A program made the position numbers and the translations under genes. From Candidatus Nitrosymbiomonas proteolyticus (GTDB lineage: Bacteria > Armatimonadota > Fimbriimonadia > Fimbriimonadales > Fimbriimonadaceae), in contig AP021858.1 of the NCBI GenBank assembly GCA_017347465.1, positions 310,001 through 374,000 of the forward strand: a stretch of 64,000 nt of DNA, in the 5' to 3' direction. The first letter of the stretch is position 1. Each line of letters starts with the position of its first letter. This document shows positions 4,670 to 6,745 of this stretch, in pieces. The notes beneath the pieces are model-generated. The model had not been told where the DNA came from, searched no databases, and was given only the letters and a program-made list of their open reading frames with translations.

Positions 4670-5404
4670 ATGAGACTCGCGCTTGCGATCTTGCTTGCGT
4701 TGCCCGTCTTTGGAGCGGCGCAAGAGCTATGGCACTTCGGTTCGCCGAACCTGATTTACGGCATCTACCGCAAAAAGTGGCACGACGCCGTGTACTTCGA
4801 TGAGGTCAGGATCGGGCACATCGACACCACGGTCAAGGACACCCAGTGGAACGGGATTCCCTGCAAGCTCTACACCTCAAATTCGTTTTTCAGCCCCAAA
4901 GAGGGGATGCCCGCGATCCCCACCGCCCGCATCACCAAGTCCTACATCGGTGCCGACGGGAAGGTGCTGCGGGTCGAAACCAGCTACAGCGACTGGCAAA
5001 AGAGCGTGATCGTCGTCGCCGACTTCAAGGTCGACGAGATCGAACTGTTCGTCCGGGACAAGAACGGGGAGCGCCGGAGCACGCTCAACCCCGCCGGTGG
5101 GACGGGCACCTTCCGTAACCCGTTTCTCGCGCTCATCGCCGAAATGGAAAAGGACCGCAAGGACGTCAAGTTTCAGCTAATCGACCCCGCGAGCGGCGGC
5201 TTGATCTCCTACACGGCGCGGGCGGTCGGGAAGTTCAACGGCACGATCTCGAACGAGAAGTTCCAGGGGGCGATCGTCGAACTCAACGGTCCGCTCGGAA
5301 GGGACAAGGTGTGGATCACCGACAAGGGCATGATGATCAAGGTCGAGCTTCACGACGGGGCGGTCGTCAACGCTCAAGATTTTCCCTTCAAGATCGATGG
5401 CTAG
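4670..5404 (+). CDS. Secreted protein of unknown function
   Basis: 244 residues beginning with a clear signal peptide (MRLALAILLALPVFGAAQ, predicted cut after AA-Q). The mature part is rich in beta-strand-like segments and has no recognised catalytic motif. It contains two cysteine-free halves except for a single IPCKLY. The start ATG 4670 follows GAGGGAGAAC at good spacing. It sits 57 bp after argS on the same strand. I do not recognise the family; the export signal is the only supported functional statement. Confidence 0.75.
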   Translation: MRLALAILLALPVFGAAQELWHFGSPNLIYGIYRKKWHDAVYFDEVRIGHIDTTVKDTQWNGIPCKLYTSNSFFSPKEGMPAIPTARITKSYIGADGKVLRVETSYSDWQKSVIVVADFKVDEIELFVRDKNGERRSTLNPAGGTGTFRNPFLALIAEMEKDRKDVKFQLIDPASGGLISYTARAVGKFNGTISNEKFQGAIVELNGPLGRDKVWITDKGMMIKVELHDGAVVNAQDFPFKIDG

Positions 5405-5453
5405 TCCAGTTTGCGGCGACGAAGCTGAGAATCCTCGCGTATTCTGAGTGAAG

Positions 5454-5624
5454 ATGGTTCTCCGAGGACTGATTGGACTGACGCTGGGCGCGCTCGCGGG
5501 GCTGGTGTATTCGCAGGTGATGGCTTCCTGCGGCTCGACGTGAGTGAGCGCGAAAAATCCGGCGGTGCCGGTGATCGTTCTTGCCGCGGTGGGCCTCTTC
5601 GCCGCCCTTTCGGGGAAGCCCTGA
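5454..5624 (+). CDS. Candidate selenoprotein: small two-helix membrane protein with in-frame UGA
   Basis: Reading from ATG 5454, 29 sense codons are followed by TGA at 5541-5543, then 26 further codons in the same frame to TGA at 5622. Read through, the 56-residue product has two transmembrane segments (GLIGLTLGALAGLVYSQVMA and AVPVIVLAAVGLFAALSG) joined by a loop C-G-S-T-U-V-S-A-K-N-P. From memory, small DUF6132-type proteins have the same layout with two loop cysteines and a following N-P, so the TGA falls close to the second cysteine. The post-TGA codons have GC in the third position in 21 of 26 cases, as expected for coding sequence here. A hairpin with a GGT loop starts 15 nt after the TGA. 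The Shine-Dalgarno is weak (GAGTGAAG), and GTG 5448 is an alternative start. A recently disabled gene is the competing reading. Confidence 0.5.
5559..5571 (+). promoter_or_regulatory. SECIS-like hairpin downstream of in-frame UGA
   Basis: CCGGC (5559-5563), loop GGT (5564-5566) and GCCGG (5567-5571) form a perfect five-pair stem. The loop begins 20 nt after the UGA at 5541-5543. Bacterial SECIS elements place an apical loop with a G in its first positions about 16-37 nt after the UGA, so spacing and loop both fit. The stem is short and the lower helix is poorly formed, so this is suggestive only. Confidence 0.4.
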
Positions 5625-5632
5625 CCTCCGCA

Positions 5633-6745
5633 ATGGCCCCGCTGGCGGTCTACGTCCACACCCCCTTCTGCCCGACCAAGTGCGGATACTGCGACTTCAA
5701 TAGCTTTGCGATGTCGGGGCCGATTCAGGGCCGCGTGAGTTCGGCAATCGAGCGCGAGATCGCCGCATCCCCTACGCGAGGGACCCCGGCGAAATCGATC
5801 TTCTTCGGCGGAGGAACCCCCACGTATCTCTCCGCCTTGCACTTGACCTCGCTGCTCCGGGCCACGCTCGCGGCGCACCCGCCCACCGACGAGTGTGAGA
5901 TCACCTCAGAGGCCAACCCCGGAACCGCCGATGCCGACAAGTTCGCCGCGATGCGGGGAGCGGGGTTCAACCGCCTGAGCCTGGGCGCGCAGAGCTTTCG
6001 CGACGACGACTTGGCGCGATTGGGGAGGGTGCATCGGGCTTCCGAGATCGAGCGGGCGGTGACGTTGGCCCGCGATGCGGGGTTTCAGAACCTCAACCTC
6101 GACCTCATGTTCGCTCTGCCGGGCCAGACCGTCGCCGATTGGAGGTCGAACCTCGAACGGGCGTTCGAACTCGGCACGGAGCACTTGAGCCTCTACTGCC
6201 TTACGCTCGAACCGAACACCCCCTTCTCCAAGGAGCACCGCGCCGGGCGTCTTACGCTCCCAGAGGAGGAGCATCAGGTCGAAATGTACGATCTCGCGGT
6301 CGATCTGGCTTCCGAAGCGGGATACCTCCAGTACGAGATCAGCAACTTTGCCAGGCCGGGATTCGAGTGCAGGCACAACCTCGCCTATTGGCGCTGCGAG
6401 CAGTACGCCGGATATGGCCCAGGCGCCGTCGGGAGGCTCGGCCTTCCGCAAGGGCCCACCCGTTACACCAACCTCAAGCACCCGCGAGCCTATGCGGAGG
6501 CGGTCGAGCGCGGCGAGCGGCTCTGGTGCGAGAGCGAGGCGCTCACCGAGGAGAACCTCCGCATGGAGAAGATTCTGCTCGGGCTCAGACTCGACGAGGG
6601 CCTGGACTCTCAGGGCCTCGACCTCTCGGAGGAGGCGCTCAGGTCGCTGGAAGAGCGGGCCTGGATTCGCCGGACCGAGGGCCAGATTCAGTTGACGCGC
6701 GCGGGAAAGCACTTCTGCAACGAAGTGGCGCTCGCCCTCTGCTGA
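5633..6745 (+). CDS. hemW: Radical SAM heme chaperone HemW
   Basis: 370 residues from ATG 5633 (MAPLAVYVHTPF), the usual HemW start. The radical-SAM cluster is C13-x3-C17-x2-C20 followed by D-F. The phenylalanine two residues after the last cysteine separates HemW from true coproporphyrinogen oxidase HemN, which has a fourth cysteine there. FFGGGTPTYL, SEANPGT, LSLGAQSF and NLDLMFALPGQ follow in the standard order, and a HemN C-terminal domain closes the protein. HemW binds heme and hands it to respiratory-chain proteins in the cytoplasm or at the membrane. The frame is open farther upstream to 5540, but that part overlaps the small membrane gene and looks non-coding. It follows the candidate selenoprotein by 8 bp. 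Confidence 0.92.
   Translation: MAPLAVYVHTPFCPTKCGYCDFNSFAMSGPIQGRVSSAIEREIAASPTRGTPAKSIFFGGGTPTYLSALHLTSLLRATLAAHPPTDECEITSEANPGTADADKFAAMRGAGFNRLSLGAQSFRDDDLARLGRVHRASEIERAVTLARDAGFQNLNLDLMFALPGQTVADWRSNLERAFELGTEHLSLYCLTLEPNTPFSKEHRAGRLTLPEEEHQVEMYDLAVDLASEAGYLQYEISNFARPGFECRHNLAYWRCEQYAGYGPGAVGRLGLPQGPTRYTNLKHPRAYAEAVERGERLWCESEALTEENLRMEKILLGLRLDEGLDSQGLDLSEEALRSLEERAWIRRTEGQIQLTRAGKHFCNEVALALC

Follow-up and report, generated by a model that had tools for sequence, protein, structure and literature searches.

CcdA/DsbD and DsbB are membrane redox proteins linked to thioredoxin. The Pfam family PF19628 (DUF6132), for which the curated cut-off is 23.2 bits, comprises small proteins of unknown function. 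In May 2026 a review catalogued 119 families and subfamilies of prokaryotic selenoproteins, and for most of the redox selenoproteins among them it describes a thioredoxin-like fold (PMC13188914).

The window analysed here is a stretch of 64,000 nucleotides from the genome of Candidatus Nitrosymbiomonas proteolyticus, which was available as one contig of 2.81 Mb. On its forward strand, which carries all of the features given below, a frame of 56 codons extends from an ATG at 5454 to a TGA stop at 5622–5624 and is interrupted by a single internal TGA at 5541–5543. This locus (5454–5624) had been proposed in a sequence-only reading as a possible selenoprotein gene. The interrupted frame was present as described, and all coordinates and counts of that reading were correct, including the G or C in 21 of the 26 third codon positions after the TGA. 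With selenocysteine (Sec) as residue 30 the 56-residue product reads MVLRGLIGLTLGALAGLVYSQVMASCGSTUVSAKNPAVPVIVLAAVGLFAALSGKP. An AF2 model of modest confidence (pLDDT about 68–70) placed helices at residues 2–25 and 37–53 with a loop at 26–36, in agreement with the claim that each half of the frame encodes one helix. The first predicted transmembrane helix, encoded by 5456–5528, is hydrophobic with conserved G12 and G16, and the second is encoded by 5562–5612. Cys26 (codon 5529–5531) lies in the loop as the putative resolving partner in a C-x3-U motif. The charge distribution, read by the positive-inside rule, does not fix whether the loop faces the cytoplasm or the periplasm. Eight nucleotides before the ATG, the hexamer TATTCT (5440–5445) resembles a −10 box by consensus match only and possibly marks a leaderless or short-leader promoter; 26 of 57 homologues have a TANNNT motif no more than 24 nt from the ATG, usually at a distance of 6–9 nt.

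These homologues came from a tblastn search of 151 genomes, which gave matches in 62; 57 loci were read and aligned. The relatives with a name belong to Fimbriimonadaceae and other Armatimonadota. The sequence-only reading had asked for relatives with Cys or TGA at the site, and all 57 have one or the other (39 TGA, 18 Cys, nothing else). A copy close to a Fimbriimonadaceae one was seen in a contig titled Methanoregulaceae archaeon SJ84 (JADZEW010000008.1, L113), which is probably mislabelled or mis-binned.

We regard it as highly probable that the locus encodes a membrane selenoprotein which carries out selenol/thiol redox chemistry and belongs to a sister branch of DUF6132. On this explanation SelB and tRNA-Sec would decode the UGA at 5541–5543, aided by a hairpin at 5559–5571. 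The product would be an integral membrane hairpin of two helices, with a short connecting loop that holds one Sec and one Cys. Sec would most likely serve as the redox nucleophile, linking transiently to the only loop Cys as a selenenyl-sulfide before a thioredoxin reduces it again.

The distribution of Cys residues bears on this proposal. Exactly one Cys was present in 66 of 71 distinct Sec proteins, where it occupies loop position +3, +4 or −3 to −7 relative to Sec. Three of the remaining proteins have one more Cys and two have none (L059 and L074), which makes a partner Cys dispensable. In the set of 57 closer relatives, this loop residue stands at +3 in 36 and upstream of Sec in 16, never in both places; in the window protein it is upstream, in most relatives at +3 or +4. 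A single partner on either side of Sec resembles, we infer, a selenenyl-sulfide redox pair.

Thioredoxin genes recur next to members of the family. In nine genomes of genus g50, and likewise in genomes G233 and G234, one immediately precedes the Sec gene, and one lies downstream of the Cys form in G212 and G119. Families f8, f38 and f13 have thioredoxin as a neighbour; in f19 it shares the frame in three genera. At L132 (G221), L182 (G138) and L193 (G222), which represent three genera of one family, a Cys-form DUF6132 protein is followed by a thioredoxin domain in one open frame; a conserved internal Met in these fused frames might also give rise to a separate thioredoxin. The G234 locus (L130, 725–2719) encodes on one strand a CsoR-type metal-sensitive repressor, a thioredoxin with an N-terminal signal-like stretch, the Sec-DUF6132 protein and OsmC. 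In two further genomes (L129 in G255, L084 in G256) the Sec-DUF6132 gene is followed, on its own strand, by a GroES-like gene. The single partner Cys and the thioredoxin neighbours together make a role of Sec as redox centre plausible, and the arrangement in these distant relatives allows moderate confidence that thioredoxin is the reductant.

At the Fimbriimonadaceae loci no thioredoxin gene was seen beside the selenoprotein gene, and the neighbour is hemW. The window gene had been placed directly ahead of hemW (5633–6745; radical SAM heme chaperone; PF04055, 87 bits), and this holds: the hemW ATG at 5633 lies 8 nt past the selenoprotein stop, and the two genes are probably co-transcribed. 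The longest hemW open reading frame (5540–6745) begins with a GTG at 5540, inside the selenoprotein gene, and an automatic caller that chose it may hide the small gene; the position of the start in the family supports ATG 5633 over GTG 5540. Upstream lies an open reading frame (4670–5404) for a likely secreted protein of 244 residues without a Pfam match, a homologue of which also precedes the selenoprotein gene at L019.

This neighbourhood speaks for an alternative in which Sec or Cys and its partner bind metal or heme and HemW hands heme to the protein or receives it. By tblastn, hemW is directly downstream in 33 of the 57 loci, often with a 4-nt overlap and for Sec and Cys forms alike, and the G234 cluster contains the metal-sensing repressor. 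However, Sec is seldom a simple ligand, and a partner Cys that switches sides of Sec is more in keeping with a redox pair than with a fixed metal site. Thioredoxin, not hemW, adjoins in other families of the phylum. Moreover, argS and hemW are also adjacent in the clade, so hemW may be a mere conserved neighbourhood. We therefore consider metal or heme binding improbable. A tie of the redox protein to heme delivery or respiratory enzymes is weakly suggested by the hemW operon of Fimbriimonadaceae.

The redox reading presupposes that the UGA is translated as Sec, and here the comparison of genomes is informative. When selB was called by TIGR00475 at E ≤ 1e-70, it was present in 38 of 39 TGA-form genomes as against 1 of 18 Cys-form genomes (Fisher p = 2.3e-12). 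The sole TGA-form genome without a selB match (G037) is a draft in which tRNA-Sec is present. The Cys-form genome with selB (G049) gave no tRNA-Sec match in an assembly that is 77% complete. A second genome (G119) also combines selB with the Cys form, so the presence of selB does not impose the Sec form. Both forms occur within each of genera g19, g21, g31 and g6, and a tree made without the TGA column, weak in that it is built on 57 columns, needs 8 form changes, at least 3 of them forced by well supported branches. A genome of the same genus as the window genome (G001) has neither selB nor the gene, which is a co-loss and not a switch to Cys.

Conservation also continues past the TGA, where the homologues share PAVPV, G47 and the second helix. 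Decay of the second half in close relatives had been named as a point to check. In a genome labelled as the same species (G201; 97.2% identity over 3.2 kb) there was none: six bases of the gene differ, two of which follow the TGA; all six changes are synonymous, and both frame and TGA are kept. Comparison thus shows both halves of the gene to be under purifying selection.

The hairpin that follows the TGA had been reported with a stem starting 15 nt and a loop starting 20 nt after it, and both distances are right. The strands CCGGC (5559–5563) and GCCGG (5567–5571) enclose the loop GGT (5564–5566), which would form the apical part of a bSECIS element. For such elements the quoted rules are a loop of 3–9 nt with a G in the first two positions, an upper stem of 4–16 bp, a loop 16–37 nt from the UGA and an energy limit of −7.5 kcal/mol (PMC13188914). 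The GGT loop, 5-bp stem and 20-nt distance lie within these ranges, which bears out the claim of bacterial SECIS spacing. The isolated 5-bp hairpin, at −7.0 kcal/mol, is slightly short of the quoted energy, and a 45-nt fold reaches −16.2 kcal/mol. Because the codons for PAVPV could yield a hairpin as a by-product of the peptide, the null used synonymous codons drawn by the family's own usage. A perfect 5-bp stem was found in 34 of the 39 TGA genes, compared with 1.87 expected, and in none of the 18 Cys genes. At L042 and L043 the sequence is CCGGT-GGT-ACCGG, in which the closing pair has changed from C-G to U-A on both sides. Different hairpins occur at about the same place at L034, which has a one-codon insertion, and at L036 and L065, which encode other peptides. 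An alignment of 34 TGA genes shows no variation at the four inner core pairs, which alone is uninformative on pairing; two genes carry a compensated closing pair, and the four outer pairs form only in part. The GGT hairpin is not shared by distant members of the superfamily, for which no common hairpin was established. Comparison shows that the hairpin is under selection in the TGA genes. With a frame common to 57 homologues and a hairpin above the synonymous-codon null, these comparisons confirm that the frame across the TGA is not a product of chance.

There is next to no probability left for the idea that the TGA is a true stop and the locus a pseudogene or a gene for a 29-residue one-helix peptide. 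TGA does act as a stop elsewhere in the genome and at the end of this very gene, and automatic ORF calling finds no gene at the locus, but against the idea stand the column that holds TGA or Cys in all 57 relatives, the conserved PAVPV and second helix, the synonymous-only divergence after the TGA, the selected hairpin and the lockstep with selB.

Decoding as Sec further requires the corresponding machinery, for which the sequence-only reading had listed selA, selB, selD and the tRNA-Sec gene selC. The window genome has all four, with scores of 446 bits for selA, 354 bits over the full model for selB, 350 bits for selD and 74.4 bits for tRNA-Sec, which ARAGORN also finds. The SelB wing domain PF09106 gave no match in this genome; since the full selB model matched, this was not taken as absence of SelB. 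SelD is itself a Sec form, with an in-frame TGA at its catalytic site (CAGUAAKLGP; L048, G000 C1:749280-750185). That the TGA is recoded or read through without Sec, for instance as Cys or Trp or by near-cognate suppression, might be read from the 18 relatives with Cys in this column, but is extremely improbable given that the form follows selB from genome to genome, that a SECIS-type hairpin is kept only in TGA genes and that SelD uses the same code. Decoding of the UGA at 5541–5543 as Sec is, on these very strong comparative grounds, nearly certain.

The sequence-only reading had also suggested a link to DUF6132. Neither Pfam nor NCBIfam gave a match for the window protein, which is therefore below the DUF6132 cut-off, and of the 57 close relatives eight match DUF6132 weakly (best E 0.0011). 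Weak NCBIfam matches of relatives to Myrrcad and XapX were set aside as low-complexity helix matches. In hhalign, profile A1, which includes two intermediate sequences, aligned to DUF6132 with a probability of 98.4 and E 5.9e-15; it retrieves DUF6132 loci at E 1e-7 to 1e-11, and around the loop the alignment to DUF6132 members above the cut-off contains no gaps. Searching 291 genomes of the phylum for DUF6132 revealed members with one in-frame TGA. Three Sec-bearing proteins of the phylum, with the TGA read as Cys, exceed the cut-off at 24.8, 29.8 and 23.5 bits, and tRNA-Sec was present in four of four genomes with clear DUF6132 Sec forms. The link thus stands as a distant relationship, supported by the profile match and the three Sec members, and fails as membership. 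Since the window protein is below the cut-off yet related by profile, we place its family beside DUF6132 as a sister branch rather than within it.

A combined profile found the superfamily in 99 of the 291 phylum genomes, with one in-frame TGA in 72 of them; a search with a DUF6132-type protein against plasmids gave no match. Gene callers usually miss selenoproteins because the UGA is read as a stop, and a gene for only 56 residues is doubly missed. With this breadth of occurrence, a common selenoprotein has probably been overlooked in the phylum.

Among the 119 catalogued families there is no DUF6132 and no recognisable two-helix protein of this kind (PMC13188914), and the NCBIfam models named there did not match the window family. 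A literature search on DUF6132 and on selenoproteins in Armatimonadota gave no useful match, GenBank annotation being outside its scope. The selenoprotein family is thus absent from that catalogue; an earlier mention elsewhere is possible. We think it likely that these minimal membrane selenoproteins, as the Sec form of the DUF6132 superfamily, make up an undescribed family that extends across the phylum and acts together with thioredoxin at the membrane, and that its resolving Cys has repeatedly switched sides of the Sec. If so, the repeated changes from Sec to Cys in step with loss of selB would constitute a natural experiment on Sec retention. With Sec and Cys forms inside single genera, switching with selB, the benefit of Sec over Cys would become testable on a very small protein. 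Thiol/selenol redox chemistry with thioredoxin would also be a first functional lead for DUF6132.

Compared with known systems, the window gene resembles the small catalogued UxxC/CxxU redox selenoproteins (PMC13188914, Table 1) in having a UGA followed by a bSECIS hairpin, a nearby Cys, and Cys homologues in genomes without Sec. In contrast to the mostly thioredoxin-like folds of the catalogued redox selenoproteins, its product is a 56-residue membrane helix hairpin. With PF19628 (DUF6132) it has in common its length, two helices with conserved glycines and the loop G-x-[ST]-x-C/U before a conserved proline. It differs from the DUF6132 proteins of the phylum, which have C-x4-U/C-P-x-T-S-N-P or U-x3-C-N-P, by its C-x3-U and PAVPV. 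By description only, it is also like CcdA/DsbD or DsbB in being membrane-bound, carrying a thiol pair and having distant relatives that adjoin thioredoxin, in three cases in one open frame; unlike these systems, the window family has only two helices and a single loop pair.
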